DNA of 29,828 nucleotides. Source: a virus. Below the pieces are notes generated by a model. It was not told the DNA's origin and searched no databases. It saw only the letters and a list, made by a program, of their open reading frames with translations. A program made the translations under genes and the position numbers. The stretch spans positions 1 through 29,828 of the IMG/VR virus record IMGVR_UViG_3300046706_000006, one strand, 5' to 3'. This document shows positions 12,655-28,030 of this stretch, in pieces (within the stretch, counting starts at the first letter, position 1; each line of letters starts with the position of its first letter).

Positions 12655-14490
12655 ATGGCTGACATCGGATTCTTTGACATCGAGACCGCGTCCGCGGACC
12701 GGCTGTACCTGGGCGGACACCCCGGCCCGTTCGTCCGGCTGTGCGGCGCTGCCGGCAACGCGGCCGTGGGCGTGACCACCGACCCCGCGGCCCTGCTGAA
12801 CTTCCTGGACCGGGCGACCGTGATCGTGGGGCATGACGTGCTCCGGTTCGACCTGTCGGCGCTGGCCCGGCACTGCGGGGCGGACTACGACGCGCTTGCG
12901 GCCAAGACCGTGGACACGATCGTTCTCGCCCGTCTCGCCGATCCGCCCTCCGCCAAGGGCATGCGGTCGGGGTACTACTCGCTCGACGCGGTCGCCCAGC
13001 GGTACGGGGTCGTGGGGAAAACCGACGACCTGAAGGCGCTGGCGCTGGAGTTCGCCCCGCTCACCGACCCGGCCACGGGGGCCAAGCTCACCGAGCCGGA
13101 ACGTGCGGCCCTCGGGTACGCCCTGATCCCTCAGGACGACCCGAGGTATCTGGACTACCTCCGGGGCGACGTACGGGCCTCACGGGCCGTGTACGGGGCG
13201 CTGGCGCCCGAACTGGACGACTACGCCCGGCGCGAGATGCGGATCGCCGCGATCCAGAACCGGATGACGCTGAATGGCTGGCGGGTGGACGAAGACCTTC
13301 TCGCGCAGCGCACCACGACCGAGGAAGAGCACCGCCAGCAGGCGCTGAAGGTGCTCGGGGCCGAGTACGGGGTGCCCCTGACCAAGACCGTGACGAAGGG
13401 CCGTGGTAAGGCCAAGGTCACGTTCGAGGAACCTCGACTGTCCCCCACGGGGTCCGACGCGGGCCGTGCTGCCCTTGTGAGCGCCTTCCGGGCCGCAGGT
13501 GCCCCCCACTACCCGAAGACCGCTACGGGGGCCCTGGCGACGTCCTCAGACGCTCTGGGGGACGGTTTCTACTTCGTGGGCAAGGGCGCGGAGATGAAGC
13601 GGTTCCCCGGCATGCTGCGCGCGTACGGGCATCTTCCCGGGGTCCGCAGGATCTGTGAGCTGGTCAACGAGGTGACCGGGGCCACCGCCAAGTACGCGGA
13701 GATCTCCAAGTTCGTTACCGCCGGCCGGGTGCACGCCGGGATCGGGGAGGACCAGGCGTCGGGGCGCTGGGCCCATACGAAGCCGTCCATCACGAACATC
13801 GGCAAGCGGGACGGGAAGGCGGTCCAGCGCGCGGTCTTCCTCCCCGACGAAGGCGAGGTCCATCTGACCGCCGACTTCGCCCAGGTGGACATGCGGGGAG
13901 TGGCCGGACTGTGCCAGGACCCGCTGTACATGGAGATGTTCGAGATCGGCCGGGACATGCACACCGAGATCGCGGCCATGATGAACGTGAGCCGGGACGG
14001 GGTGAAGCCGCTGAACCACGGCAACAATTACGGCTTGGGCGCGAAGGCCATGATCACTAAGGGTCATGACCCGGAGCTGGTCTCCCGGTTTTTCGAGGTG
14101 ATGAGCCGGTTCGAGGTCAAGGCAGCCTGGACCGAGCGCGTCCGCGAGCAGGCCGAATCCGGTCACCTGCTGGACAACGGTTTCGGCCGCAAGATGCGCT
14201 GCGACCCGGCGCGCGCGTACACCCAGGCTCCGGCGCTGATGGGCCAGGGGTGTGCCCGGGACATCATGACCACGGGGCTGCTGCGCATGGTGGACCGGCT
14301 TCCGGAGATCACGTCCATGCTGAGGTGCGTCGTTCACGATGAGGTGGTGCTGTCCGTGCCCGTGGACCGGGTGGACGAGGTGACCGAGGTGATCAAGGAC
14401 GCGATGACGTTCGAGTTCCGTGGCGTCCCGATCCTGGCGGACGTGTCCGCACCGGGAACGGACTGGGAGCAGTGCTACGGGGGCAAGTGA
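12655..14490 (+). CDS. Family A DNA polymerase with 3'-5' exonuclease domain
   Basis: A 611-residue polymerase with the GACGGAGGAAACG cassette upstream. Exonuclease motifs: FFDIETA (Asp8, Glu10), GHDVLRFD (60-66) and YLRGD (168-172). Polymerase motif A is DFAQVDMR (407-414), with Asp412 where the family usually has Glu. Motif B is KPLNHGNNYG (Lys451, Asn454, Tyr459) and motif C is VVHDEVV (559-565, with HDE at 561-563). It replicates phage DNA with proofreading and has no 5'-3' nuclease domain. Residues around 245-262 (TKGRGKAKVTFEEP) are a basic loop in the thumb region. It is translated right after the primase-helicase, so the two are co-expressed. Confidence 0.93.
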   Translation: MADIGFFDIETASADRLYLGGHPGPFVRLCGAAGNAAVGVTTDPAALLNFLDRATVIVGHDVLRFDLSALARHCGADYDALAAKTVDTIVLARLADPPSAKGMRSGYYSLDAVAQRYGVVGKTDDLKALALEFAPLTDPATGAKLTEPERAALGYALIPQDDPRYLDYLRGDVRASRAVYGALAPELDDYARREMRIAAIQNRMTLNGWRVDEDLLAQRTTTEEEHRQQALKVLGAEYGVPLTKTVTKGRGKAKVTFEEPRLSPTGSDAGRAALVSAFRAAGAPHYPKTATGALATSSDALGDGFYFVGKGAEMKRFPGMLRAYGHLPGVRRICELVNEVTGATAKYAEISKFVTAGRVHAGIGEDQASGRWAHTKPSITNIGKRDGKAVQRAVFLPDEGEVHLTADFAQVDMRGVAGLCQDPLYMEMFEIGRDMHTEIAAMMNVSRDGVKPLNHGNNYGLGAKAMITKGHDPELVSRFFEVMSRFEVKAAWTERVREQAESGHLLDNGFGRKMRCDPARAYTQAPALMGQGCARDIMTTGLLRMVDRLPEITSMLRCVVHDEVVLSVPVDRVDEVTEVIKDAMTFEFRGVPILADVSAPGTDWEQCYGGK

Positions 14491-14497
14491 CTGGTAC

Positions 14498-14511
14498 GGT
14501 TTAACGAAACC
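14498..14511. promoter_or_regulatory. Operator-like motif GGTTTAACGAAACC
   Basis: It differs from the perfect site near 29070 only in the two central-right bases and keeps the outer GGTTT/AAACC inverted repeat intact. It lies between the polymerase stop and the next start (14531), where a TACGGT at 14495-14500 could be a -10 box overlapping it. It probably controls a promoter for the downstream resolvase genes. Confidence 0.55.
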
Positions 14512-14530
14512 GAGAGAGGACGGAGGAACG

Positions 14531-14731
14531 ATGGCCGAGACACCCGCACAGTGGGAGCAGCGCTGGGCCCGGGAGGCGGACTGGAACCGGGACGACTGGG
14601 GTCCGCCCTCGCTGCCGGCCGACCACCCCCGGATCATCCGGGCCCGGCGCATCGGCTGGCTGGCGAAGTCGTTCCTGCGCGGCGCCCGCTGGGGTCACCG
14701 CGTCGCGGCCGGGCGACGGGAACGGGGCTGA
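14531..14731 (+). CDS. Small basic hypothetical protein (66 aa)
   Basis: It starts MAETPAQWEQRWAREADWNR at an ATG preceded by the exact GACGGAGGAACG cassette. It is Trp- and Arg-rich: the N-terminal half is acidic and helical, followed by RIIRARRIGWLAKSFLRGAR and a basic end. The strongly basic C-terminal helix suggests nucleic-acid binding. No family recognised. It is followed 3 bp later by the next gene. Confidence 0.55.
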   Translation: MAETPAQWEQRWAREADWNRDDWGPPSLPADHPRIIRARRIGWLAKSFLRGARWGHRVAAGRRERG

Positions 14732-14734
14732 ACC

Positions 14735-14968
14735 ATGGCCACGGCAGCGGAGCGCTGGCGGTCCCGTCAGACCCGCCGCCTGGCCCGGGACACCGAGACG
14801 CTGGAGCACCAGGTGCGCAGCTTCGGCAGGGCGCTGGAGCGGGGCAGCGGCCCGTACGCGGACGACGCGCGGGACCTGACGAAGCGGGCGCTGGACCTGG
14901 TCAAGCTGGCCGCTTCGGTGGACGGTATGCAGGAGATCACCGATCTGATGACGGAGGAAACGCGATGA
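14735..14968 (+). CDS. Small helical hypothetical protein (77 aa)
   Basis: It starts MATAAERWRSRQTRRLARDT and is helical throughout, with a likely coiled coil (ETLEHQVRSFGRALERG) and a C-terminal helix (LTKRALDLVKLAASVDGMQE). There is no strong Shine-Dalgarno; GGAACGGGGC lies upstream and translation may be coupled to the preceding gene. The stop overlaps the resolvase ATG (ATGA). Function unknown; it could be a resolvase partner, judged only by position. Confidence 0.55.
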   Translation: MATAAERWRSRQTRRLARDTETLEHQVRSFGRALERGSGPYADDARDLTKRALDLVKLAASVDGMQEITDLMTEETR

Positions 14969-15606
14969 CGATGAACGTGCTGGGGCTGGATCTTTCGATG
15001 ACCGCCACCGGGATCTGTCTTCCGGACGGCCGGACGTTGACGGTCGCGACGAACGCCAAGGACCGGGACTACCGGCTGGTGGTGATCCGCAACGAGGTAC
15101 GCGGCGCGGTCATCGCCACCCGGCCCGATCTGGTCGTGATGGAGGAAGCGCCCCCGGGCCTGAAGGGGTCTGCGATCAAGGCGATCCACATGGTGCAGGG
15201 GGCGGTGCGGGTGGCCCTGCTGGACCTCGAAGTTCCGTGCGCGGTGGTGAACCCGTCCACGCTCAAGGCGTACGCCACCGGAAAGAAGGGCGCCGACAAG
15301 ACCGCCATGACCATGGCCGCGTACAAGCGCGCGGCACTGGAGTTCGGAGACGACAACCAGGTGGACGCGTGGTGGCTGCGGGCCATGGGCCTGGACCAAC
15401 TGGGGGAGCCGGTGGTGACCGTGCCGCAGGCGCAGCGGGACTTCATGGAGTCCGTGGACTGGCCGAAGCTGGCGGAGACCGCAGCGGATTCGGACGCCTG
15501 GCTCGGGCACCTGGACCGGCTGAAGCCCAGCACCCGGCTGGACGACGCGTCGCCGGTCACGGTCGGCAGCAGCGACCCGGTCCCGTGCCATTTCGAGGCC
15601 CGATAA
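14965..15606 (+). CDS. RuvC-like Holliday junction resolvase
   Basis: A 213-residue protein with the RNase H-fold signature of phage RuvC-like resolvases. MNVLGLDLSMTATGI gives catalytic Asp9 on strand 1, LVVMEEAPPG gives Glu60/Glu61, and DDNQVDAWWL gives Asp130/Asp134 on the last helix. VNPSTLKAYATGKKGADKTA is the family's conserved basic region. It should cut four-way junctions to resolve replicated or recombined DNA before packaging. The ATG overlaps the upstream stop and has GGAGGAAACGCG before it. The C-terminal 70 residues are an extra, less conserved tail. Confidence 0.85.
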   Translation: MTMNVLGLDLSMTATGICLPDGRTLTVATNAKDRDYRLVVIRNEVRGAVIATRPDLVVMEEAPPGLKGSAIKAIHMVQGAVRVALLDLEVPCAVVNPSTLKAYATGKKGADKTAMTMAAYKRAALEFGDDNQVDAWWLRAMGLDQLGEPVVTVPQAQRDFMESVDWPKLAETAADSDAWLGHLDRLKPSTRLDDASPVTVGSSDPVPCHFEAR

Positions 15607-15629
15607 CGCAGGCGCGAGGCTGTGACCTT

Positions 15630-16181
15630 GTGGTAACGAAGCGATTGTACGACTCGCCCCGGTGTCCGATGCGGACCCGGGGCGGTCGCATGTGCCATCT
15701 CCCTGCGGGCAAGGGAACCGGGCATTTCGGCTACGGTCAGTGTGAGGTGCACGGGGGACTGTGGCCCCAGAACGAGGACGCGTGGAGGCAGGCCATGGAA
15801 CTGGCGAAGATCGAGGGCATCGGCCCCACTGAGGCGCTGCTGAAGCTGGTCACCGCGTCCATGGGCCGGGCCGCGTACATGGACCTGGTGCTGGAGGCCG
15901 CTCTTGCCCGGCACGTGGCGGACGGGGGGGACCCGCTGATCCCGCCGGCGACCATGCGCCCGTGGCTGAAGGAGTCGCGCCAGGAACGTATGGTGGCCGG
16001 TCGCATGGCGAAGGCCGCGGTGGACGCGGGCGTGATGGAGGCGCTGGGGCGCAGGCTGGACATGGAAGGCGGTCTGGTGGCGGACGCGCTGACCGCGGCC
16101 CTGGACGCGCTGGAGCTGGAACCGGCGCAGCGGATGAAGGCTTTGGGCGCCGCGCAGGAGAGGCTTCTGTCCGCTGAATAA
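15630..16181 (+). CDS. HGG-motif zinc protein, putative small terminase subunit
   Basis: A 183-residue protein from a GTG at 15630 (an ATG at 15669 is possible). The N-terminus carries a compact zinc motif, CPMRTRGGRMCHLPAGKGTG then GYGQCEVHGG, a pattern I associate with actinophage proteins often annotated as small terminase subunit. The rest is helical: EALLKLVTASMGRAAYMDLV, MAKAAVDAGVMEALGRRLDM and a C-terminal ALDALELEPAQRMKALGAAQ. Small terminase subunits recognise the packaging site and recruit the large subunit, here 4.5 kb downstream. The call is tentative; a DNA-binding regulator is the alternative. Confidence 0.55.
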   Translation: MVTKRLYDSPRCPMRTRGGRMCHLPAGKGTGHFGYGQCEVHGGLWPQNEDAWRQAMELAKIEGIGPTEALLKLVTASMGRAAYMDLVLEAALARHVADGGDPLIPPATMRPWLKESRQERMVAGRMAKAAVDAGVMEALGRRLDMEGGLVADALTAALDALELEPAQRMKALGAAQERLLSAE

Positions 16182-16183
16182 GG

Positions 16184-16189
16184 TAAACT
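16184..16189 (+). promoter_or_regulatory. TAAACT -10 box of a short promoter gap
   Basis: In the gap after the putative small terminase gene, GGTAAACTGG provides a TANNCT-type -10 hexamer, giving a start near 16196 and a leader of about 27 nt before the ATG at 16223. No good -35 hexamer is visible 17 bp upstream, as is common in actinobacterial promoters. Confidence 0.4.
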
Positions 16190-16222
16190 GGTCGGGACAC
16201 AGTGACCGATGACGGAGGAAGT

Positions 16223-16447
16223 ATGGACGACGCGCGCAAGGTGCTCTATGACGCACTGGGCATCGACCCGGAGCGGATGAGCTTCCAGGAGTTCGACGGT
16301 CACGTGGACCGGTTCGCGGCCACGCTGACGGACACGATCCGCATCCCGAGGTTCGATCCGGCTGTGTGTTCGGTCACGCTCTCGATCGCGGGGAAGAGCA
16401 ACCCGCAGGCGATCGACCACTGGGCCCCGGAATCGGGGACGTCATGA
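16223..16447 (+). CDS. Small hypothetical protein (74 aa)
   Basis: It starts MDDARKVLYDALGIDPERMS after GACGGAGGAAGT; a GTG at 16202 is less likely because it lacks a binding site. An N-terminal helical part (residues 1-35) is followed by a beta-rich end (CSVTLSIAGKSNPQ). No family recognised. Its stop overlaps the next ATG (ATGA), starting a coupled run that leads into the sugar cassette. Confidence 0.55.
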   Translation: MDDARKVLYDALGIDPERMSFQEFDGHVDRFAATLTDTIRIPRFDPAVCSVTLSIAGKSNPQAIDHWAPESGTS

Positions 16448-16650
16448 ACCCCCTCACGATCGCCGAACTCCGCCTGCGCCACGCCCAGTTGGCGGAGCGG
16501 GCCGAGCGCCTGCGCCAGGAGGGCCGTTCCTTGTCCGCCACCACGCCCCGGGCCGGATTCACCGCGCGCCGGGTCCGCCTGATCCAGCAGCAGGCGGACG
16601 ACTATGCCTCGCTGCTCCGCATCGCCGAAGCCGAGGGGGCCACGCTGTGA
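16444..16650 (+). CDS. Small helical hypothetical protein (68 aa)
   Basis: It starts MNPLTIAELRLRHAQLAERA at an overlapping ATGA. Two amphipathic helices (AELRLRHAQLAERAERLRQE and RRVRLIQQQADDYASLLRIA) suggest a helical hairpin or coiled coil. No recognised function; it ends with a GTGA overlap. Confidence 0.55.
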   Translation: MNPLTIAELRLRHAQLAERAERLRQEGRSLSATTPRAGFTARRVRLIQQQADDYASLLRIAEAEGATL

Positions 16651-17051
16651 TCCGCGAAGACCGAATGCTCATCAGCCGCAAGCCATTCGCTATCGATCTC
16701 ACCACTGTGGCCTTGGACGCGACCGAACGCGACGGCGTCTACTGGCTGTCCGGCAGTTGCCGGGCCGTCTGGTACCGGCGCAAGGACGGCGTAACCCGGG
16801 CGTGTCTGGGCCGTTTGGGTCTGCGGGCGCAGTGGAGACACGAAGCACCTGACCTGTCCAGTCCGGAAGCCATGCTCAGCAACAACCTGGACAGCAGCTA
16901 CGGCGGCACCACAGAGGGCCGATGGGACGGCTCCGGGTACTGGGGTGCCGAAGACCCCGATGTCCAGGCGCAGCACCTCGCGATCCTGCGTCCGATGCTG
17001 CACGCGTACCCGACGCCCCCGACTGGGTACGACGGGTGGTGGCGGTTCTGA
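16647..17051 (+). CDS. Hypothetical protein (134 aa)
   Basis: It begins at a GTG overlapping the previous stop: MIREDRMLISRKPFAIDLTT. The product has a beta-rich first half (VYWLSGSCRAVWYRRKDGVT) and a second half with NNLDSSYGGTTEGRWDGSGY and a Trp-ending tail. No family recognised. The stop (TGA 17049-17051) shares its A with the ATG of the following glycosyltransferase, so the two are translated together and it may belong to the sugar cassette. Confidence 0.55.
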   Translation: MIREDRMLISRKPFAIDLTTVALDATERDGVYWLSGSCRAVWYRRKDGVTRACLGRLGLRAQWRHEAPDLSSPEAMLSNNLDSSYGGTTEGRWDGSGYWGAEDPDVQAQHLAILRPMLHAYPTPPTGYDGWWRF

Positions 17052-17710
17052 TGACCGGCACCACCCCCACGTACGCGGTGATCCCCACCGAGGGGCGCCC
17101 GTGCCTGCACGACTGTGTGGCCGCGCTCCGGGACCAGGTGGACGGGATCATCGCTGTGGCGAACGGAGGCTACAACGGCACGGATCTCCGGGACGCGTAC
17201 GTGATCCGGGACCGCAACCCCGTCCCGAACATTTCCCGTTGGTGGAACATCGGGCTGGAGACGGTCCGGCGCCGGATGGAGCGCGACGGAGAGCTGTGGC
17301 AGGACCGCTGGAACGTTCTGGTGGTCAACGATGACACGGTCATGGCGCCCGGCTCCGTCGCAACCCTTACCGCAGGGCTGCGGAAGTACGACGGGGCGCA
17401 GCTCGCGTTCCCGGGCCTCCGGTCTGCGGAAGGCCTGATGAGGCACCCGAACCCGATCCGAATCACCGGCTGGTGCTTCGCCCTGCGCGGGGAAGCAGGC
17501 CTACGGGCGGATGAGGAACTGGCGTGGTGGGCCGGGGACAACGATCTTGACTGGCGTGCTCGGCAGTCCGGCGGGACCGTGGTCGTCCCCGGCGTGGAGC
17601 ACCAGCACCTGCACCCCAACGGGTACACCGTGGCGCGCCCGGACCTGACCGAACAGGCGGGCAAGGACATGGCCCGGTTCGTGGAAAAGTGGGGGCGTCC
17701 GGCGTGGTGA
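17051..17710 (+). CDS. GT-A fold glycosyltransferase (family 2-like)
   Basis: A 219-residue enzyme. MTGTTPTYAVIPTEGRPCLH is the first beta strand and nucleotide-binding start; VDGIIAVANGGYNG continues the Rossmann-like half. NVLVVNDDTVMAPGSV carries the NDD metal and sugar-nucleotide motif equivalent to DXD. ITGWCFALRGEAG and WAGDNDLDWRARQSGG supply the acceptor-side acidic residues (family ED motif as DND). It should transfer a sugar from a nucleotide donor; acceptor unknown. It shares one base with the upstream gene and is separated from the epimerase gene by the HNH gene. Confidence 0.8.
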   Translation: MTGTTPTYAVIPTEGRPCLHDCVAALRDQVDGIIAVANGGYNGTDLRDAYVIRDRNPVPNISRWWNIGLETVRRRMERDGELWQDRWNVLVVNDDTVMAPGSVATLTAGLRKYDGAQLAFPGLRSAEGLMRHPNPIRITGWCFALRGEAGLRADEELAWWAGDNDLDWRARQSGGTVVVPGVEHQHLHPNGYTVARPDLTEQAGKDMARFVEKWGRPAW

Positions 17711-17728
17711 CCAACGAGAGCGGGAGCC

Positions 17729-17746
17729 GGTTTAATCGGCTATACT
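17729..17746 (+). promoter_or_regulatory. Promoter with operator half-site for a leaderless HNH gene
   Basis: GGTTTAATCGGC (17729-17740) carries the GGTTTAAT half of the dispersed operator motif, directly followed by a consensus-like -10 box TATACT (17741-17746). The ATG at 17753 begins 7 nt past the -10 box, where transcription should start, so the mRNA would be leaderless. Confidence 0.55.
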
Positions 17747-17752
17747 GGGCGC

Positions 17753-18199
17753 ATGCCAATTGACGTTACTTGCCCTTGTGGGATGCAGTTCCAAGTAACC
17801 CCCAGCCGAGCAAAGCAGGGTAGGGGACGTTACTGTTCGAAAGAGTGTAAGTACAAGTACCGGGTGAGACCGAGCGGGTTGAAGTACAACGTCGTGAAGG
17901 AGAACCCGACCAGTTTCAAGCCCGGTGAGACTCCCTGGAACAAAGGGGTCGCCCTCAAGGAAGAGATCTCTTACAAGGAACTTCACCGATGGGTGGCCCG
18001 GCACCGGGATAAGGCGGGCGTTTGCGAGCATTGCCAGGAACCGAAGACCACCGAATGGGCCAATAAGAGCCACGAATACCGAAGGGACCTAGCGGACTGG
18101 CTGGAGCTTTGCCGAACGTGTCACCGGAGGTACGACTCCGGCGACGTTCGCGGTGCAGCTACCCGGAAGTACGGAAAAGACAAGGTGCAGAACGGATGA
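17753..18199 (+). CDS. HNH homing-type endonuclease
   Basis: A 148-residue protein. An N-terminal zinc finger (CPCGMQF ... RYCSKECKYKYR) is followed by a NUMOD-like element (TSFKPGETPWNKG). The HNH domain has CEHC, then NKSHEYRRDLADWLELCRTC and HRRYD, with the expected Asn, His and zinc cysteines. Such free-standing enzymes cut specific DNA and spread their own gene between phages. The DNA is visibly richer in A and T than its neighbours, with its own leaderless promoter, and it sits between two sugar genes, all signs of late insertion. Its stop overlaps the epimerase ATG (ATGA). Confidence 0.85.
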   Translation: MPIDVTCPCGMQFQVTPSRAKQGRGRYCSKECKYKYRVRPSGLKYNVVKENPTSFKPGETPWNKGVALKEEISYKELHRWVARHRDKAGVCEHCQEPKTTEWANKSHEYRRDLADWLELCRTCHRRYDSGDVRGAATRKYGKDKVQNG

Positions 18200-19002
18200 G
18201 AATAGCTGTTTCTGGCGGGTCGGGGTTCATCGGCAGGGCCACGATCACGGCCGCGGAGAACGCGGGCAACGACGTGTGGTCGTTCGACCGGGCCGACGGG
18301 AACGATGTTCTCGGGGACCTGGCAGCCCTGTCCGGGGCCGACACGGTCATCCACCTGGCCGGGGTGCTGGGTACGGCCGAGCTGTTCGACAACCCGGAGT
18401 GGGCCGTTGAGGTGAACATCAAGGGCACGCTGCGGGTGCTGGAGTGGTGCAGGGCCAACGGCGCCGGCTACGTCGGTATCACCATGCCCCCGGTGTTCCC
18501 GAGCGTGTACACGGCCACGAAGGTGTGCGCGCAGAGCCTGGCCACGAACTGGCACCGGGCGTTCGGCGTGCCGGTGAGCCACGTGCGGGCCTTCAACGCC
18601 TACGGTCCCGGCCAGGCGCACGGCCCCGGTCACCCGCAGAAGATCGTCCCCACGTTCGCCCGCGCCGCGTGGCAGGGGCTCCCGATCCCGGTGTGGGGCG
18701 ACGGCACCCAGACCGTGGACCTGGTCCATGCCGACGACGTGGGCCGGATGCTGGTGGACGCGGCCGGGCACGGGGACGACGCCGTGTTCGACGCGGGGAC
18801 GGGCGAGGCGGTCACGGTCAACGAAGTGGCGGACATCGTCCTCGGGATCACCGGGAGCAGCGCCGGGGTGGAGTACCTGCCGATGCGCACGGGCGAGGAA
18901 GCGACCACGGTCGTGGCCAAGGGTGAGGGATGGGGCCGCCTCGACTGGCGTCCGGTCATGGACTGGCAGCGGCTCGACGACACAATCGGGTGGTACCGGT
19001 GA
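18196..19002 (+). CDS. NAD(P)-dependent sugar epimerase/dehydratase (extended SDR)
   Basis: A 268-residue Rossmann enzyme from the ATG at 18196, chosen because MRIAVSGGSGFIGRATI starts the fold exactly. GGSGFIG (7-13) binds NAD(P); VIHLAGV (51-57) is the second signature; the catalytic pair is Tyr105-x-x-x-Lys109 in SVYTATK. The C-terminal substrate part has NAYGPGQAHGPGH and WGDGTQTVDLVHADDV as in UDP- or dTDP-sugar epimerases. It should make a modified nucleotide sugar for the neighbouring glycosyltransferases. It is somewhat shorter than typical 300-330-aa epimerases, so the sugar-binding domain is compact. Confidence 0.85.
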   Translation: MRIAVSGGSGFIGRATITAAENAGNDVWSFDRADGNDVLGDLAALSGADTVIHLAGVLGTAELFDNPEWAVEVNIKGTLRVLEWCRANGAGYVGITMPPVFPSVYTATKVCAQSLATNWHRAFGVPVSHVRAFNAYGPGQAHGPGHPQKIVPTFARAAWQGLPIPVWGDGTQTVDLVHADDVGRMLVDAAGHGDDAVFDAGTGEAVTVNEVADIVLGITGSSAGVEYLPMRTGEEATTVVAKGEGWGRLDWRPVMDWQRLDDTIGWYR

Positions 19003-19673
19003 CCCGCCCCGACGCGGCTGTGGTCCAGGCGCTGTACGGGGCGTACGACACGCTCAAGCCGGTGATACCCCAGGCGGGGCTGGACGTGGACTGGGTGCTG
19101 GTCACCGACGACGCGTCGCTTCGGGGCAGCTCCCTGGGCTGGCGCGTGGTCCACCTGCCCCGGCCGGGCGTGCACCCCAACCGGGCGGCGAAGGCCCCGA
19201 AGCTGTTCCCGTGGGAGTACACCGACGCGTCGTCGTCCGTGTGGCTGGACGCGTCCTTCCGCGTCACCTCCCCGGACTTCGTGTCCGGGGCTCTGGCGTG
19301 CACGTCCGTCTCCGACCCGGTCGCCCAGTTCGTGCACCCGTGGCGGGACTGCGTCTTCACCGAGGCGGAGGAGTCGGCGAAGCTGGCCAAGTACGCGGGG
19401 GAGGACTTCGGCCCGCAGGTGAAGGACGCCCGGGAGCTGGGCCACCCGGACCACTGGGGGCTGTGGGCCACGGGGGTGATAACCCGGCGCCACGATGACG
19501 ACCGGGTGTTCGACCTGGGCAACGACTGGTCGGACCTGATCGACCGGTTCACGTTCCAGGACCAGGTATCGCAGCCGGTGGCGCTGCGCTCCTCTGTCCT
19601 GCGTCCGGCCCCGCTGCCCGGGACGCACTTCGCGAACCCGTGGCTGAGCTACGAAGGAAGTGAGCGGCATTGA
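18999..19673 (+). CDS. DUF616/TOD1-like glycosyltransferase
   Basis: A 224-residue protein from an overlapping GTG (VTRPDAAVVQALYGAYDTLK). It resembles the DUF616/MUCI70 group of GT-A glycosyltransferases: DVDWVLVTDDASL near the N-terminus, KLFPWEYTDASSSVWLDASF with the acidic metal motif, then FVHPWRDCVFTEAEESAKL, where the H-P-x-R-x-C element is typical, and a late GLWATGVITRRHDD. It probably adds a sugar to a phage or host glycan. It overlaps genes on both sides in the cassette. Confidence 0.7.
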   Translation: MTRPDAAVVQALYGAYDTLKPVIPQAGLDVDWVLVTDDASLRGSSLGWRVVHLPRPGVHPNRAAKAPKLFPWEYTDASSSVWLDASFRVTSPDFVSGALACTSVSDPVAQFVHPWRDCVFTEAEESAKLAKYAGEDFGPQVKDARELGHPDHWGLWATGVITRRHDDDRVFDLGNDWSDLIDRFTFQDQVSQPVALRSSVLRPAPLPGTHFANPWLSYEGSERH

Positions 19674-20104
19674 ACATCGAGATCGGCGGAGGAACGCTGG
19701 CCCCGCCCGGATGGACCAACCTGGACCCGGTGCACGGCACCGAGGGCTGGAAGCGGCGTGCTCAGGACGGTCCCTGGCCGGCGGACGGCGGGTCGGTGCA
19801 CGGGATCCTGGCCAGTCACGTGATGGAGCACATCCCGGCCGCTGAACCCCGGCTCTTCGTCATGAACGAGGCGCACCGGGTGCTCCGGCCCGGGGGCGTG
19901 TTCACGGTGCGGGTACCCAACGCGGCTACCGGCTGGCACGCGTACGCGGACCCGACGCACGTCAGCTTCTGGGTGCTGGAGTCTTTCCACTACTTCGACG
20001 GTCTCAAGGCCGCGCACGCGGACTACGGCATCCGTCCGTGGACCACCCTGGATCTGACGATCCAGGGGGACAACGAGATCATGTGGCGGGGGACGCCGCG
20101 ATGA
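19670..20104 (+). CDS. SAM-dependent methyltransferase (class I)
   Basis: A 144-residue enzyme starting at TTG (19670), which overlaps the previous stop and has GAAGGAAG upstream. NIEIGGGTLAPPGWTNLD is motif I (E-x-G-G-G) plus the acidic ribose-binding end. HGILASHVMEHIPAAEPRLF carries the SHVMEHI element of methyltransferase domain 11, and HRVLRPGGVFTVRVPN follows. It lacks much of the usual C-terminal cap. In this context it probably methylates a sugar, though other acceptors are possible. Confidence 0.8.
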   Translation: MNIEIGGGTLAPPGWTNLDPVHGTEGWKRRAQDGPWPADGGSVHGILASHVMEHIPAAEPRLFVMNEAHRVLRPGGVFTVRVPNAATGWHAYADPTHVSFWVLESFHYFDGLKAAHADYGIRPWTTLDLTIQGDNEIMWRGTPR

Positions 20105-20721
20105 CCCTGCGCCCCGGGGTGACCGCGGTCATTCCCTTCCACGCGGCCCGGGAGCGCAACGGGATGCTGGAGCGGGCCGCGGCCTCGGTGCGGGCGCAGA
20201 CGTACCCCACGGAACTGGTGCTGGCCCGGGACGTGCACGCCGCGGGCGCCGCGGTCACCCGCAACCACGGGATGGCGGAGGTGGAGACCGAGTGGACCGC
20301 GTTCCTGGACAGTGACGACACCATGGACCCGGACCACATCGAAGCCCTGATGGCCTGCGCGAGCGAGACGGGGGCGGACTACGTGTACCCCTGGTTCCGG
20401 GTGGTCGGTGGCTCCGATCCGTTCCCGATGTTCTTCGGCCGTCCGTGGGACGACGCGGACCCGCACCAGGTCCCGGTCACGATCCTGGTACGTACCGGGT
20501 TGGCCCGGCTGGTGGGATTCTCCAACCCGCCCGGGTGGGAGCGGGGCGGAGAGGACTGGGCCTTTACCCTGGGCTGTGTGGCTGCCGGCGCCACGATCGT
20601 GCACCTGCCGGAACGGACCTGGACCTGGAACCATCATGGCCGCAACAGCTCGGGTACGCCGGGGTACGGGGACGCCGGGCCGCAGCCCGTGGCCCGGCGC
20701 CGGGCGCAGCGTCGTCGTTGA
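20101..20721 (+). CDS. Family 2 glycosyltransferase
   Basis: A 206-residue enzyme from an overlapping ATG: MTLRPGVTAVIPFHAARERN is the first strand and donor loop, AAASVRAQTYPTELVLARD follows as in GT2 proteins, and TAFLDSDDTMDPDHIEAL carries the DSDD metal motif. WERGGEDWAFTLGCVAAGAT gives the catalytic-base ED motif. The last gene of the sugar cassette, with a basic C-terminus (RRRAQRRR). A short inverted repeat follows at its stop, immediately before the large terminase. Confidence 0.85.
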   Translation: MTLRPGVTAVIPFHAARERNGMLERAAASVRAQTYPTELVLARDVHAAGAAVTRNHGMAEVETEWTAFLDSDDTMDPDHIEALMACASETGADYVYPWFRVVGGSDPFPMFFGRPWDDADPHQVPVTILVRTGLARLVGFSNPPGWERGGEDWAFTLGCVAAGATIVHLPERTWTWNHHGRNSSGTPGYGDAGPQPVARRRAQRRR

Positions 20722-20739
20722 GTCGGGCACACTCAACCC
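20717..20739 (+). promoter_or_regulatory. Leaderless promoter and inverted repeat before the terminase
   Basis: GTTGAGT (20717-20723) and ACTCAAC (20731-20737) form a 7-bp inverted repeat with a 7-nt spacer. CACACT at 20728-20733 is placed like a -10 box so that transcription would start at the terminase ATG (20740). The same CTCAACCC string follows the -10 box of the primase promoter (10191-10198). The site could be an operator or part of a packaging signal. Confidence 0.4.
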
Positions 20740-22107
20740 ATGACCGAGACCGACCGCGCAGCCGTGGGGCGTGCAGCAGCAGCAGCCCTCGCCGCGCGGT
20801 TCGCGTCCCCGAAGTGGACCCCGCTGCCCCACCAGGTCCCGCCCCCGGGGGACTGGTACGGGTGGCTGCTGCTGGCCGGCAGAATGGCGGGGAAGACGGA
20901 CGCGTGCGCGGCGTACATCGCCGACCACGTCAAGGGACCGCCGTGCCTGCCCGGCCCCATCCCGCACTGGATCGGGATCATCGGGCCCACCCTTGGTGAC
21001 GCGGTCACCTCTTGTGTCAACGGCCCCTCGGGACTGCGCGTGCACGACCCGACCGCTCGCCTGGTGAACGGGGCCGGAGGGCTGTCAGTGAAGTGGCCGA
21101 ACGGCTCAGAGGCCAAATTGTTCGGTGCTCACACCCCCGATGACGTGGAACGACTACGCTCCGGTGGCAATCGTTGCTGTGCGTGGCTAGAAGAATTGGC
21201 CGCGTGGCGCCAGCTTGACGAGTGCTGGGACCACATGCGGTTCGGTCTGCGGACCGGGCCCCGGCCACACTGGGTGGCGTCCACCACACCCAAGCCCCGG
21301 CCGCTGATCGAGCGCCTGCACAACCGGTCGATCGCGAACGTCGCGCTGACGCACGCCAGCTACCGGGACAACCCCCACATCTCTGCCGACATCAAGGCAG
21401 CGCTGGAAGAGACGTACGCGGGAACCCAGCTCGGGCGCCAGGAACTGTACGGGGAGCTGATCGCTGAGGATGAGAATGCCCTGTGGACGCGGGACATGAT
21501 CGACGCGGCGCGGGTACGGCCTGACGCGGTCCCCGACTTGGTGAAGATCACCGTCGGTGTGGACCCGTCCGGAGGCCGTGGCGAACAGGGCATCGTCGTG
21601 GCGGGCAAGTCAGGTCTCGTACTGCCGGGCAACGGAGGACGGCCCCAGGCGCACGGATACGTGCTCGATGACCGCACCTGCCACCTGCCCCCGGACGGAT
21701 GGGGCCGGCGTGCGGTCCAGGCGGCGATCGACTGGGAAGCGGACGACATCGCGGTGGAGATCAACTACGGAGCTGCCATGGCCGTGTCCGTGATCCGGAC
21801 AGCAGCCGACGCGCTCGGGGTGGATATCCCGATACGGCAGATGAACGCGACACGCGGGAAGAGGGTCCGGGCGGAGCCGGTCAGCGCACTGACCGCACAG
21901 GGGCGCTGGCACCACGCGGGGGTGTTCCCCGAGCTGGAGCAGCAGCTTTCGACCTGGCACCCGGAAATCGGCTGGTCCCCTGACCGTCTGGACGCCATGG
22001 TCTGGACCACCTGGCAACTGAAACTCGCGCACCTCACCGGGTCCGGCCGGGGGTCGTCCGGGGCGCAGGCCGCGCAGCAGAACATCGGCGGGGTGCGGGT
22101 TCGTTAA
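20740..22107 (+). CDS. Terminase large subunit
   Basis: A 455-residue packaging ATPase-nuclease. The Walker A-like loop is LLAGRMAGKTDA (residues 45-56); Walker B is CCAWLEELAAW (146-156) with paired Glu; ASTTPKPRP (181-189) is coupling motif III. The nuclease half starts ITVGVDPSGGRGEQG with the first metal Asp276, then DIAVEINYGAAMAV and the last acidic site in PDRLDAMVWTTWQL. It drives DNA into the prohead and cuts it. No Shine-Dalgarno is visible at the ATG, in line with a leaderless transcript. The sugar cassette lies directly upstream and the holin-like gene directly downstream. Confidence 0.92.
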   Translation: MTETDRAAVGRAAAAALAARFASPKWTPLPHQVPPPGDWYGWLLLAGRMAGKTDACAAYIADHVKGPPCLPGPIPHWIGIIGPTLGDAVTSCVNGPSGLRVHDPTARLVNGAGGLSVKWPNGSEAKLFGAHTPDDVERLRSGGNRCCAWLEELAAWRQLDECWDHMRFGLRTGPRPHWVASTTPKPRPLIERLHNRSIANVALTHASYRDNPHISADIKAALEETYAGTQLGRQELYGELIAEDENALWTRDMIDAARVRPDAVPDLVKITVGVDPSGGRGEQGIVVAGKSGLVLPGNGGRPQAHGYVLDDRTCHLPPDGWGRRAVQAAIDWEADDIAVEINYGAAMAVSVIRTAADALGVDIPIRQMNATRGKRVRAEPVSALTAQGRWHHAGVFPELEQQLSTWHPEIGWSPDRLDAMVWTTWQLKLAHLTGSGRGSSGAQAAQQNIGGVRVR

Positions 22108-22118
22108 ACCGGTACGCT
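22097..22118 (+). promoter_or_regulatory. Operator-like motif GGGTTCGTTAAACC with a TACGCT -10 box
   Basis: The 14-mer at 22097-22110 matches 11 of 14 positions of the perfect site near 29070 and overlaps the terminase stop. TACGCT at 22113-22118, identical to the -10 box at 9094-9099, follows 2 bp later. Transcription would start near 22125. This probably drives the two membrane-protein genes. Confidence 0.55.
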
Positions 22119-22148
22119 CACGTGCATGAACGACGGAAAGAGACGCAC

Positions 22149-22460
22149 GTGAGCGACGCGCGATACACCCTGCTCCTGTCCCTGTGGCGGACCTTCATCC
22201 CGTACCTGGTCGGCTTCATCTGCGCGGCTGCCGCGCGGTGGGGACTGCACCTGGACGAACAGTCGGTGGAAGCGGGGCTGGTGCTGGTCTTCGGCACCGT
22301 CTACTACGCCGCGTCCCGCTGGCTGGAGCAGAACAAGGGCAAGCGCTGGGGCTGGCTGCTCGGGTACGCCAAGCAGCCCCTGTACCGCCGTGGGCGCCAC
22401 CGCGCCCCGGTCCCCATGCGGGAACTGACCGAACGAAGTGAGACGACGGAGGACGCATGA
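22149..22460 (+). CDS. Two-helix holin-like membrane protein
   Basis: A 103-residue protein from a GTG at 22149 with GGAAAGAG upstream (a GTG at 22122 in frame is an alternative). TM helix 1 is about residues 8-28 (LLSLWRTFIPYLVGFICAAA) and TM helix 2 about 40-58 (VEAGLVLVFGTVYYAASRWL). A basic segment and a charged, probably disordered tail follow (GKRWGWLLGYAKQPLYRRGR). The pattern of two helices plus charged tail is that of small phage holins, but no endolysin is next to it, so holin is a tentative call. It ends with an ATGA overlap onto the DUF1360-like gene. Confidence 0.65.
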   Translation: MSDARYTLLLSLWRTFIPYLVGFICAAAARWGLHLDEQSVEAGLVLVFGTVYYAASRWLEQNKGKRWGWLLGYAKQPLYRRGRHRAPVPMRELTERSETTEDA

Positions 22461-22876
22461 ACAACCCCTGGTTCCTGTTGGCGGTCATGTCGCTGGCCAC
22501 CTTCATCCTGACCAAGCTGGTCGTGGACCTGGACTTCCCGCCCGTGCTGTGGCTCCGTGACCGGGTCGTGGGCGGGTGGCGACCGCTGACGCTGGCGGAG
22601 ACGAACGAGCTGCGGGGAGCGCTGCTCACCCCGGGCTCGAAGGTGTCCTGGGACTGGTCGGACCTGGGCGGGGAGCGGCAGCGGTGGAACGACCGCACCC
22701 CGTGGATCCCGCTGTTCTTCTCCGAGCTGATGAGCTGCCCGTGGTGCACCAGCGGCTGGCTGTCGGCCGGTGTGACGGGCGGGACGTGGCTCATTGCCGG
22801 ACTGCCCGTGCCGGTCCTGATGTGGCTCGGTTCGTGGGCGCTCGGGGCCTTGATGGCTCAGCACGATTATGCTTAA
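22457..22876 (+). CDS. DUF1360-like membrane protein
   Basis: A 139-residue membrane protein. TM helix 1 is near residues 5-22 (WFLLAVMSLATFILTKLVVD), followed by a soluble stretch with WRPLTLAETNELRGA. ELMSCPWCTSGW (90-101) is the CxxC signature of the DUF1360 family, and two further helices run through about 102-133. Function of the family is unknown. It overlaps the holin-like gene and shares its GACGGAGGACGC ribosome-binding site region. An operator-like GATTATGCTTAACT (22865-22878) covers its stop codon. Confidence 0.75.
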   Translation: MNNPWFLLAVMSLATFILTKLVVDLDFPPVLWLRDRVVGGWRPLTLAETNELRGALLTPGSKVSWDWSDLGGERQRWNDRTPWIPLFFSELMSCPWCTSGWLSAGVTGGTWLIAGLPVPVLMWLGSWALGALMAQHDYA

Positions 22877-22899
22877 CTAGGGTGGCTGAAACCCCCTGA

Positions 22900-22934
22900 G
22901 AGACCCCCGGAGATCCCCAAGTCCCGGGGGTCTC
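22900..22934 (+). terminator. 11-bp stem hairpin, terminator before the portal gene
   Basis: GAGACCCCCGG (22900-22910) pairs perfectly with CCGGGGGTCTC (22924-22934) around a 13-nt loop. It follows the DUF1360-like gene by 23 bp and precedes the portal gene. It should end the terminase/membrane-protein transcript, so the portal gene would need its own promoter or antitermination. Confidence 0.8.
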
Positions 22935-22997: not shown

Positions 22998-24782
22998 ATG
23001 CCGTGGTGGACGTTCGGTCTGGGACGTACCCCCCAGCTCCCGCGTGCGGAGATCACAGCCGCGTACCAGCGGGCGCACGCCCCGCAGGCGCTGACATCGG
23101 CCGCGGTGGAGGTGGACGCCCCGCGCTCCGATCTGCTGCGTACCACCGAGACGTGGCAGCAGGAGGTCTGGCGGTACTACGACACCCTGGGCGAGTTCAA
23201 CTACGCGGTGTCCTGGCTGTCCGCGATGCTGTCCCGCGTCCGCCTGTACGCGGCCGAGCTGGTGCCCGGCCAGGACGAACCGGTGCGGCTGGACGACAAC
23301 CACCCGGCCGTGGACGTGATGAACAAGCTCGCCGGCGGAGTGGCCGGGCAGACCGCCCTCATGGCCAGCCTGGCGGTGCAGCTCGCGGTGCCGGGTGAGG
23401 GGTACCTGGTCGGGGAGACCCGGCAGGGCGCGGAGCGCTGGTCGGTGCGGTCGGTGGACGAAGTCCAGGCCCGGCACAAGCAGTGGCAGGTCAAGGACGA
23501 GAACGCGCCCAACTCCGACCAGTGGCGCGACGTGGTCGGGGGCCACGTGTTCCGGGTGTGGCGCCCGCACAAGCGCTGGTACCACCTGGCGGACTCCAGC
23601 TCCCGTTCCGCGCGGGCGACGATGCGGGAACTGGAGCTGGTCAACCGGCACATCCTGGCGCAGTACCTGAGCCGCCTGGCCTCCGCCGGTATCTGGTTCC
23701 TGCCCAACGAGGTGGACTTCCCCGTACGGGAGGAGTTCGCCGACATGCCCAACCCGATCATGGCGGAGATCGTGGAGTTGGCGCGGCTGGCGATCGCGGA
23801 GCCGGGCACCGCGTCCGCTGTGATCCCGCTGCTGATGCAGATGCCCGGTGAGTGGATCAAGACGGTCGCTGATTCGCACCTGGACTTCACGCTCAAGATC
23901 GACGAGAAGATCATTGAGAAGCGGGACAGTGCGATCAAGCGGCTGGCCACCCAGGTGAACATCCCGGCCGAAGTGCTGCTCGGAATGGGTGACGTGAACC
24001 ACTGGGGTGCCTGGCAGATCGAGGAAGGCGCTCTGAAGACCACGATCGCCCCGGACGCCGAACTCATCGCGAACGCGGTCACCACGGCCTATCTCCAGCC
24101 CCGGCTGGCAGCGGGCGGGGAGCAGGACACGGGCCGGTTCGTGGTCTGGTACGACATGTCCGAGCTGACCATGCGCCCGGACCGCAGCGACGACGCGGTG
24201 CTGCTGTACGACCGGCAGGAGCTGTCCGGTGACGCACTGCGCCGGGAGACCGGGTTCGACGAAGCGGACAAGCCGACCGGCGCGGACCTGCTGGACCAGG
24301 CGCTGAAGCTGGTCCTGCGTACGCTCCCGGACGCCGCCCTGACCGCGCTGCGGGAACTGACCGGGGCAACGCTGGAGACTCCTTCCGTGGCCGCGTCCCC
24401 GGCGCCGGAGCCAGCACCGGAAGCCGCACCGGTTCCCGTGCCCGTTACCGGACCGCCCAACGGGAACGAAGCGGCCCCGGTGCCCGACGTGGGGCTGGTC
24501 GCGCAGGCGCGCGCAGAGCGGCTCATCCGGCAGGCTCGTGCTGTGCACGCGGTCCGGTTCGGGATGGCCGGGTGGGAACTGCTGCACCCGGCAGCGTGCG
24601 ACCAGCACACGTACTCCTGCCCGTTCACCCAGGGCGCGCTGTCCCTGAAGTCCATGGCCTACCCCGGGACGCCGGGGCTGTACGAATGCACCCTGGACGC
24701 GTTCGGCCGGTTCCGGGTCGGTGACCGGGCCCCGCACAAGGATGTGTCCGGTCACAGGGTCACCCGGAGCGTGACCCTGTGA
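22998..24782 (+). CDS. Portal protein
   Basis: A 594-residue protein from the ATG at 22998 with GGGAGG upstream. The N-terminal region EVWRYYDTLGEFNYAVSWLS resembles the wing/clip start of actinophage portals. The central stem region is helical with NPIMAEIVELARLAIAEPGT and KRLATQVNIPAEVLLGMGDV, the latter a conserved portal element, then HWGAWQIEEGALKTT. The C-terminus has an Ala/Pro-rich linker (residues about 465-500) and a separate Cys/His-containing block (HPAACDQHTYSCPFTQGALS). It forms the dodecameric channel for DNA entry. It is placed correctly between terminase and the MuF/protease gene and overlaps the latter (GTGA). Confidence 0.87.
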   Translation: MPWWTFGLGRTPQLPRAEITAAYQRAHAPQALTSAAVEVDAPRSDLLRTTETWQQEVWRYYDTLGEFNYAVSWLSAMLSRVRLYAAELVPGQDEPVRLDDNHPAVDVMNKLAGGVAGQTALMASLAVQLAVPGEGYLVGETRQGAERWSVRSVDEVQARHKQWQVKDENAPNSDQWRDVVGGHVFRVWRPHKRWYHLADSSSRSARATMRELELVNRHILAQYLSRLASAGIWFLPNEVDFPVREEFADMPNPIMAEIVELARLAIAEPGTASAVIPLLMQMPGEWIKTVADSHLDFTLKIDEKIIEKRDSAIKRLATQVNIPAEVLLGMGDVNHWGAWQIEEGALKTTIAPDAELIANAVTTAYLQPRLAAGGEQDTGRFVVWYDMSELTMRPDRSDDAVLLYDRQELSGDALRRETGFDEADKPTGADLLDQALKLVLRTLPDAALTALRELTGATLETPSVAASPAPEPAPEAAPVPVPVTGPPNGNEAAPVPDVGLVAQARAERLIRQARAVHAVRFGMAGWELLHPAACDQHTYSCPFTQGALSLKSMAYPGTPGLYECTLDAFGRFRVGDRAPHKDVSGHRVTRSVTL

Positions 24783-27700: not shown

Positions 27701-28030
27701 AACGACAAGCACGGGATCTGGCTGGCCGGGCAGATCCGTCCCGGCGCCGACCCGTCCGCTGTGTTCGCCCTGCGGGCCGCGGGCCGGGTCAGCGGGGACT
27801 GGCGCAACATCGGCGGGAAGCTCCGGCTGGTGGCGCTGCTCGGGGTGAACACGGCCGGGTTCCTCGAATCGGACCTGCGGACCCGGGCGCGCGTGGCCGG
27901 AGGCCAGCCCATGGCACTGGTAGCGGCGGGGGCGACCGCTCCCGTCTGGCATCCTGAGGGCATGGACATCGCCAGGGCGTACAAGCTGATCATGGATCAG
28001 ACCCTCGCCCGGTTCACCGAGGGGAGGTGA
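24779..28030 (+). CDS. Fusion: 2H phosphoesterase - MuF-like - prohead protease
   Basis: A 1083-residue multidomain protein from an overlapping GTG. Residues about 33-200 are a 2H phosphoesterase (LigT-like) domain: GMIALMPTAADAKRLKLAGG, first motif LHVTLFYLG (His59, Thr61), second motif APHICMAYT (His159, with Cys161 for the usual Thr/Ser). Residues about 215-465 are helical and end in a MuF-like module (NSCKPCRDIDGTEYASLATA, then GYRRCLGGSRCRGTIVTVWN). Residues about 555-720 fit a prohead protease (GPLAVEGIVTGDGREFAPDA, KFLRGVSIDADS, ATLVDIPAFAEAYVAL). The last 350 residues form a further domain with HHTATSDASWDAGMNEK and GYTGVVITDDGYLYGHIAPW. It probably makes the minor head protein and maturation protease. 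An internal start at 26219 may give a separate protease. Confidence 0.82.
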   Translation: MTPLPFHLRGRHVQHAHGHRTVELADGEHLSGGMIALMPTAADAKRLKLAGGETAADLHVTLFYLGPDMSVFSDGDKSAMTNRVLDAIGRNPATVTGNVFGTNHWNGNGEDPCWVLGVGDVPAEDRPENGMTLESVRATVADALDMFPVPSQHTPWAPHICMAYTSDLSLAKELQKRLGPVEFDRVRVAFGGDYTDIPLSGALTAAAAPLRRNLTSTELAAHTDFERMQSTWEAAVDAALKDLEPVFKAQQADIVGQVSVAAKADDLSALDSVTVDEQAAYEVLAPALLKAAQQAAEAQQKEAEAQGVTVPDWSLTSDTVTAAAGRDLLDQVARVTARLMATSLVQSAVRTALRLFGHGNAPGAVTAGVQQHLDDLTDAQPRESVGGAVTQAQAEGRRTVLAVAPTGRYFASEVLDRNSCKPCRDIDGTEYASLATAFAAYPSGGYRRCLGGSRCRGTIVTVWNQPAGATASAAVDKGVSMAYEVTQDRPECSGDTPVAVVNTMDDSLCGCYATPEEAAQAVDQMDSGDMPPESMDYAAQNVYGAELGPAAEDGSTAPWTGPLAVEGIVTGDGREFAPDALTWADLPVPLRWNKEDSHGGEPHTVAVNVGRIDKIWRDGSKIMGSGVLNLAVPDGQTAYDLIKGKFLRGVSIDADSITDADVELVWPESDGAVMEDDPLAALFGGPPPEKMIFHAGRIRAATLVDIPAFAEAYVALTDDNGAVVAGGEPYTFAAVAVHHTATSDASWDAGMNEKRLPSPLTLAQARAAYAWTDDSAVDAGKIPKTGCKFIHHEVNADGSAGPANLAACSATIAVLHGGRGGTTIPTADERGVYNHVAAHLKDAGKVPAPFAADDAVTAGAMAEMADFRPHPSRFADPKLAGYTGVVITDDGYLYGHIAPWNACHIGYDGQCVTAPREDTHDHYMTGEVVCSDGSRAAVGQITIGTGHASLYVGARPAAEHYDNTGTAVADVAVGNDKHGIWLAGQIRPGADPSAVFALRAAGRVSGDWRNIGGKLRLVALLGVNTAGFLESDLRTRARVAGGQPMALVAAGATAPVWHPEGMDIARAYKLIMDQTLARFTEGR
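26207..26221 (+). promoter_or_regulatory. Internal ribosome-binding site and ATG in the fusion gene
   Basis: AAGGGAG precedes an in-frame ATG at 26219 by 5 nt. This would start a protein at residue 481 of the fusion (MAYEVTQDRPECSG), after the MuF module and before the protease domain. It is a better start signal than that of many annotated genes here. A second product of 603 residues holding the protease alone is therefore plausible. Confidence 0.45.

Follow-up and report, generated by a model that had tools for sequence, protein, structure and literature searches.

Genes of the cassette

The IMG/VR virus record IMGVR_UViG_3300046706_000006, analysed here over its whole length of 29,828 bases (the window; G+C content about 69%), is from a soil phage with probable Streptomyces hosts and carries five genes for putative sugar-modification enzymes, the cassette studied here. 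Genes for a primase of the D5/DUF5906 type and a DNA polymerase of family A lie upstream of the cassette, and those for the large terminase subunit (46% identity to its counterpart in Streptomyces phage OnionKnight) and a portal-like protein (weak Pfam match) follow downstream. No match was obtained when window positions 14500-22900 were compared with phages by megablast. The features of the locus are as follows (aa, amino acids; ORF, open reading frame; SDR, short-chain dehydrogenase/reductase; SAM, S-adenosylmethionine).

17051..17710 (+): first glycosyltransferase (A), 219 aa, first enzyme of the cassette, assigned to the GT-A class by its predicted fold
17723..18192: insert of 470 bp bearing the HNH-like ORF, delimited by the blastn junction with the near-identical phage L007
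17753..18199 (+): HNH-like putative homing endonuclease ORF, 148 aa, outside the sugar pathway
18196..19002 (+): compact nucleotide-sugar epimerase/reductase (E), extended SDR, 268 aa, PF01370
18999..19673 (+): TOD1/MUCI70 (DUF616)-like glycosyltransferase (D), 224 aa, phrog_26101 and GT-A model
19670..20104 (+): small class I SAM-dependent methyltransferase (M), 144 aa, PF08241
20101..20721 (+): GT2-family glycosyltransferase (G), 206 aa, PF00535
20740..22107 (+): large terminase subunit, conserved right-hand neighbour, not in the pathway

The ORFs of the five enzymes, and thereby the outer limits of the cassette, are found where an earlier note on this DNA had placed them. The same note had described all five genes as joined by overlaps of 1-4 bp, which does not hold at the first junction. 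Overlaps of 4 bp are present at the HNH/epimerase, epimerase/DUF616, DUF616/methyltransferase and methyltransferase/GT2 junctions, and the 1-bp overlap of the first glycosyltransferase gene is with the ORF upstream of it (16647-17051). On its other side this gene is separated by 42 bp from the HNH-like ORF and by 485 bp from the epimerase gene; as the insert lies between the two, no overlap links the first enzyme with the others. The earlier inventory was thus right about the five enzymes, but it had overlooked the sixth ORF at 17753-18199.

Enzyme families, motifs and folds

Two GT2 enzymes had been proposed. The product of 20101-20721 does match the GT2 model PF00535 (E 2.1e-11), as well as the glycosyltransferase family phrog_14775 (E 1e-44); it is 58-62% identical to gp106 of Zuko and gp107 of KimJongPhill, two cultured Zukoviruses, and the motifs DSDD or DDDD, and ED, are present in the sequences aligned. 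In contrast, no Pfam GT2 model matches the product of 17051-17710, which is a GT-A enzyme by fold only. The identity of this protein to Zuko gp108 and KimJongPhill gp109 is 42%, and PDB sequence profiles match it weakly (heparosan synthase, E 0.011). Its AlphaFold model (mean predicted local distance difference test score, pLDDT, 92.4) is nearest to the polypeptide GalNAc-transferase 2, ppGalNAc-T2 (VIA Z 17.5, root-mean-square deviation (rmsd) 2.6, 197 residues aligned), followed by hyaluronan synthase (Z 16.6), TarP (15.8) and RmlT (15.7). Since these four lie within 2 Z units, the acceptor is not readable from the fold. Residues D95 and D163 are invariant in 35 sequences, and an N-D-D motif is kept, being N-S-D in the Zukoviruses.

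The epimerase matches PF01370 (E 1.2e-33, 117 bits against a cut-off of 20.9) and phrog_540 (E 2e-42). Its residues G7, G8, G10, G13, Y105 and K109, which make up the GxxGxxG and YxxxK motifs, are invariant in 7 sequences, and the remaining triad position is T96 (Ser in locus L019), in keeping with an extended SDR. Only a short stretch separates the catalytic Thr from the Tyr, which we take to be unusual. Assignment of this SDR as a dTDP-glucose 4,6-dehydratase (dTDP, deoxythymidine diphosphate) was rejected, with 82.5 bits against the 365 set for TIGR01181 and no TDE motif.

The DUF616-like protein falls below the cut-off of PF04765 (E 0.0014, 18.4 bits against 21.4) and matches the glycosyltransferase family phrog_26101 (E 3e-9). 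When the family was compared with PDB sequence profiles, no solved chain was matched at E 1. The model of the protein (pLDDT 95.9) has a GT6 enzyme, entry 4ayj, as its nearest fold (VIA Z 13.6, rmsd 3.5, 194 aligned), and ten residues are invariant in 57 sequences, among them K68, D84, H113, R116, E122, Q140 and Q189. On the strength of these models, the first glycosyltransferase and the DUF616-like enzyme can confidently be predicted to be GT-A fold transferases. The nearest folds of the two models use uridine diphosphate sugars; the fold does not fix the donor, and this was not used as donor evidence.

The methyltransferase is just above the cut-off of PF08241 (E 1.6e-4, 22.7 bits against 21.2) and matches phrog_6636 (E 1e-8), and the full-length sequences aligned contain the motifs IEIGGG, NLD, and ASHVMEH or AAHVMEH. 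The functional roles given here to the motifs of the cassette enzymes are those which we assume them to have. No membrane-like stretch was found in the five enzymes or in the HNH-like ORF (maximum 19-residue hydropathy 1.33), and the set therefore includes no Gtr-type flippase or lipid-linked transferase.

Conservation of the cassette in related phages

Relatives were gathered by an alignment-based scan of viral contigs and a scan of genomes, both with the DUF616-like protein as query. All counts out of 82 refer to loci L049-L130, in which the genomes of S. caniscabiei NE06-02D and Streptomyces sp. 549 are joined by 80 loci from IMG/VR, the best-scoring of 93 relatives confirmed there. This set still contains near-identical pairs (L071/L074, for instance). 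Among all the loci gathered, several represent one and the same contig (e.g. L006, L014 and L049), and loci end at contig or flank ends, so that absences are to be read as lower bounds. A search of plasmids with the same query gave only distant matches from Cereibacter and deltaproteobacteria.

The order GT-A, epimerase, DUF616-like, methyltransferase, GT2 is kept in 33 of the 82 loci. The terminase gene comes next after the cassette in 32, including loci in which another methyltransferase replaces the epimerase or stands beside it. At least one other member of the cassette is located near the DUF616-like gene in 56 loci, and none was found nearby in the other 26. Adjacent genes overlap or are at most 30 bp apart in 30/33 glycosyltransferase/epimerase pairs and 28/33 epimerase/DUF616 pairs, and in 16/35 DUF616/methyltransferase and 14/35 methyltransferase/GT2 pairs. 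The overlaps are not fixed among relatives. Protein distance matrices from the 27 non-redundant loci in which all six genes are present showed correlations (rho) of 0.43-0.64 among the cassette members as against 0.16-0.43 with the terminase, with no more than 9 of 500 permutations reaching any observed value, and the ratio of non-synonymous to synonymous substitution rates was between 0.07 and 0.49 in all 15 pairwise comparisons (three relatives per gene).

Judged from these comparisons, the cassette is a conserved unit, more so than chance would predict, and it is probably active. The gene order and the co-variation argue for one functional unit, and, together with the conserved motifs and the dTDP-sugar genes of relatives described below, they bear out the suggestion that the cassette could build and methylate a glycan. 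The loss of active sites in several members, named beforehand as a finding that would speak against it, was not seen, the catalytic motifs being kept in the aligned sequences.

The cassettes of relatives also vary in content. A small conserved protein of ~85 aa (SVGRIVHYVSYGTPGGEY...GTWHWPE; L061:5666-5926) is encoded between the DUF616-like and methyltransferase genes in many core loci and is absent from the window. In some relatives (L054:1198-1713 and L067) a different second methyltransferase stands in place of the epimerase.

Insertion of an HNH-like gene

A near-identical phage, represented by locus L007 of contig G002, is 100% identical to the window over positions 13649-17722. In L007 the end of the first transferase gene runs directly into the epimerase gene, and the blastn junction (window 17722|18193, L007 4074|4079) indicates that 470 bp in the window replace 4 bp. 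The insert has a G+C content of 0.57, compared with about 0.69 in its surroundings. It is also present in L006, whereas L007, L009 and L010 have the empty site, as expected of a homing endonuclease gene placed at a site that is uninterrupted in sister genomes. Matches of the ORF itself are weak (HNH_2, E 0.079, below the cut-off; phrog_559, E 0.015; 38% identity over 41% of its length to the annotated HNH endonuclease gp57 of Gordonia phage Gudmit, E 7e-4). These comparisons identify it as a putative homing endonuclease gene, a selfish DNA-cutting gene, inserted into the middle of the cassette. Next to the insert, the window and L007 differ at the start of the epimerase gene, and the sequence beyond agrees closely, a pattern which looks like co-conversion.

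A large gap at the glycosyltransferase/epimerase junction was found in 3 of the 33 core loci with both genes, L049 (the window type), L056 and L064, and each gap contains an ORF. That of L056 matches HNH_3 (E 8e-5), and that of L064 shares 29% identity with the protein of L056. Locus L114, a divergent one, encodes a relative of the HNH-like protein of the window (39%) directly before the epimerase, and in L129, the S. caniscabiei locus, the terminase frame (L129:10259-12445) contains what we read as an intein-like insertion, overlapped in another frame by an HNH-like ORF (10942-11475). From these cases the cassette locus appears to be a recurrent target of HNH-type genes. The terminase match is broken also in L060, L066 and L079.

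Candidate donor sugar and acceptor

More than 1.5 kb of sequence upstream of the first glycosyltransferase gene was available for 31 of the 35 core loci. Within it, RmlB-like genes are found in 18 loci and RmlA-like genes in 8, both in 5 and either in 21. Their matches to TIGR01181 (E 1e-58) and TIGR01207 (E 3e-51), respectively, are below the curated cut-offs. For the RmlB-like protein of L129 (199 bits) and Zuko gp4 (193 bits), TIGR01181 is the best family match, below its cut-off of 365 bits, and both proteins contain the TDE and YSASK motifs; the RmlA-like protein of L129 reaches 174 bits with TIGR01207 (cut-off 361), 219 aa being aligned to positions 1-236 of 286. Because such genes accompany the cassette in 21 of the 31 testable relatives, the donor is likely to be a sugar of the dTDP-6-deoxyhexose type, derived from dTDP-4-keto-6-deoxyglucose. 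No RmlA- or RmlB-like gene lies near the cassette in the close relatives of the window, and this phage would therefore depend on host enzymes.

The acceptor was approached through contig G002, a complete genome of 57,766 bp with a terminal repeat of 127 bp and hence a circle of 57,639 bp. Its 77 genes were called with a simple codon-usage script, and 76 were scanned against Pfam, partly by way of identical or near-identical genes of the window; the terminase was left out, and one protein was scanned over the first 378 of its 679 residues. No base-modifying family was detected at E 0.01 among these 76 genes, which extends the earlier observation on the window to a near-twin genome. An obvious acceptor did not emerge from the Ser/Thr/Pro content of the G002 structural proteins, which was not used further.

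A GT4-like transferase gene (PF13524; L025:15783-16859, G002 34783-35862) follows the endolysin gene and two small ORFs in G002 and may perhaps be a further member of the pathway. It recurs in G003, G004, G005, G007 and G010, that is, in all six of the larger contigs searched counting G002, and was not found in the 27-kb fragment G008 nor in the fetched part of G009. In L081, Zuko and KimJongPhill, a gene for a 2-oxoglutarate (2OG)-Fe(II) oxygenase of family PF13640 is located directly before the first glycosyltransferase gene. No TET/JBP model matched this oxygenase, and PF13640 is the superfamily to which the prolyl hydroxylases belong.

The earlier note had preferred protein or wall glycan to DNA as the target. 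DNA is indeed disfavoured by the absence of base-modifying families, and the preference for protein gains indirect support from the 2OG-Fe(II) oxygenase and from published capsid glycosylation. On this analysis we favour a protein acceptor, of the tail if anything, and rate the chance that it would be a virion protein as about even.

Comparison with known systems

Freeman et al. (2023) reportedly described genes for virion glycosylation in mycobacteriophages Che8 and Rita. The major capsid proteins of these two phages are reported to bear glycans (PMC11256854), and a glycosyltransferase and methyltransferase pairing in Rhodococcus phages has been taken to predict likely virion glycosylation (PMC13313380). 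Like Che8 and Rita, the phages studied here are actinophages with linked glycosyltransferase genes, and the catalytic motifs of these are intact, as would be expected of a virion glycosylation module of the Che8 type. The cassette differs by its nucleotide-sugar SDR, its DUF616-like enzyme and its place next to the terminase, and relatives add RmlA, RmlB and the 2OG oxygenase. No mycobacteriophage was among the tblastn matches listed for the five cassette enzymes.

Zuko and KimJongPhill (Zukovirus; NC_070829 and NC_070830) share homologues of the GT-A and GT2 enzymes, with a methyltransferase between them. In Zuko the terminase gene is accompanied by genes for an RmlB-like protein (46% identity to the one in L129) and a GT4-like protein (28%), and at the same place KimJongPhill has genes annotated as epimerase, methyltransferase and glycosyltransferase. 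However, the genes of the Zukoviruses form two clusters, the methyltransferase is marginally similar and the capsid protein is different, and no DUF616-like homologue was found in them among the tblastn matches. Microbacterium phage Magritte (OR553905) has an epimerase, a glycosyltransferase, an HNH endonuclease and a glycosyltransferase gene in a row before the terminase, but only its epimerase was matched (34%), its glycosyltransferases being absent from the matches listed.

The DUF616-like protein resembles the plant TOD1/MUCI70 family (PF04765, DUF616) in its weak profile match and in the glycosyltransferase fold of its model; it differs in that the match remains below the Pfam cut-off and the phage proteins have only ~220 aa. 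Enzymes of the GT6 family (BoGT6a, alpha-1,3-galactosyltransferase and the ABO enzymes) are the best fold neighbours of the model, although identity is about 11% and the phage protein has D-A-S in place of DXD. A literature search on DUF616 together with phage returned nothing, and no title or abstract start found on phage dTDP-sugar or hydroxylase-transferase cassettes describes this one.

Proposed pathway and alternatives

In the best reading of these comparisons, the cassette would encode an O-glycosylation system with O-methylation, kin to the virion glycosylation of mycobacteriophages. More specifically, it may make, attach and O-methylate a sugar of the 6-deoxyhexose type, probably on virion proteins, with a homing endonuclease gene inserted among its genes, a reading which we consider about equally likely to prove right or wrong. 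Of its two parts, the pathway has good support and the target is predicted. In this phage, host enzymes would convert dTDP-glucose into dTDP-4-keto-6-deoxyglucose, a step that in many relatives would fall to RmlA/RmlB-like enzymes of the phage, whose genes are seen and whose activity is predicted. The compact SDR could then reduce or epimerise this intermediate to the donor sugar, and the first GT-A enzyme would attach a sugar to a protein hydroxyl. The glycan may then be extended by the DUF616-like and GT2 enzymes, together with the GT4-like enzyme encoded after the lysis genes in G002, and the small methyltransferase would cap it. The acceptor would most likely be a virion protein, and the sugar coat may alter recognition or adsorption of the particle.

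Several observations weigh against this pathway. Neither an RmlA-like nor an RmlB-like gene is present nearby in 10 of the 31 core loci, and these ten include L049, L050, L051 and L053, close relatives of the window. Besides the two Zukoviruses, the 2OG oxygenase gene occurs in only 1 of the 82 loci and is absent from this phage. The capsid proteins of Zuko (TIGR01554) and G002 (NF033847) have no BLASTP similarity, which makes a capsid-specific target doubtful; the two phages share a tape measure protein (40% over 652 aa), and it is because phages with dissimilar capsids and related tape measures share these enzymes that a tail acceptor is preferred to a capsid one. Finally, the wall teichoic acid enzymes TarP and RmlT are almost as close to the first glycosyltransferase as is ppGalNAc-T2 (Z 15.7-15.8 against 17.5).

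This last similarity also fits the main alternative, to which we give roughly one chance in four, namely that the cassette modifies a glycan of the host envelope, for example wall teichoic acid, during infection or lysogeny and thereby blocks adsorption of sister phages. dTDP-6-deoxyhexoses are common wall sugars, and relatives of the cassette are present in two Streptomyces genomes. However, the cassette sits among replication and packaging genes and not in a lysogenic module, and the association with the 2OG oxygenase fits a protein acceptor better. Serotype conversion of the Gtr type was rejected, as both the membrane flippase and the membrane transferase are lacking.

A host protein or small molecule, such as a defence component or a metabolite, is rather unlikely as the acceptor. 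Sets of GT-A enzymes and epimerases also decorate Streptomyces natural products, but the cassette lies beside packaging genes in 32 of the 82 loci, a conserved place which suggests late expression.

Less likely still is an extended version of the virion-protein pathway, in which the 2OG oxygenase, when present, would hydroxylate a virion protein, RmlA/RmlB and the SDR would supply the donor, and three or four phage transferases and the methyltransferase would build a methylated glycan on that residue, with a tail protein as acceptor. This would resemble the hydroxylation-primed glycosylation of the collagen type, as a pathway widespread and modular in Streptomyces phages.

Placement of the glycan on the bases of the phage DNA is very improbable. 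DNA glycosylation exists in T4-like phages (PMC6024577), and 2OG oxygenases could in principle oxidise bases, but the oxygenase found here matches PF13640 and no TET/JBP model, and DNA modification was rejected on the absence of a base-modifying enzyme from the near-twin genes scanned. Equally improbable is an inactive cassette, with genes or transcription broken by the HNH insertion: the insert does separate the first glycosyltransferase from the epimerase, whose start differs from the uninserted allele, but each of the five ORFs is complete and retains its motifs, neither flanking ORF is interrupted by the insert, and the stop codon of the HNH-like ORF overlaps the start of the epimerase gene.

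Other genes of the window and its near-twin

A GntR/UTRA regulator is encoded at window positions 316-1080 (-). Outside the region shared with the window, G002 encodes a plasmid TraB/FtsK-like translocase (L026:1257-3011 (-); NF041214, E 5e-10, far below the cut-off), the best plasmid matches of which are in Streptomyces, and a protein that in our reading resembles an Spd-type membrane protein (L026:4580-5551 (-)). No integrase was found among the 76 Pfam-scanned genes. One possibility is an extrachromosomal prophage or a phage-plasmid that has acquired conjugation functions of the Streptomyces type. FtsK-like genes are known from Streptomyces phages as well, TP1604 among them. A late gene at window 24779-28030 codes for a protein of 1083 aa with a weak 2'-5' RNA ligase-like match at its N-terminus and is probably a fused head-morphogenesis gene.

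Significance

The HNH insertion and the associations with dTDP-sugar and 2OG oxygenase genes are additions to what had been noted before for this DNA. That phage particles can be glycosylated was found recently, and donors or acceptors are known for few of the transferases. For this cassette, the dTDP-sugar genes of relatives suggest a donor. The cassette occurs in many uncultured phages and in two Streptomyces genomes, and its cultured relatives, Zuko and KimJongPhill, are open to testing.

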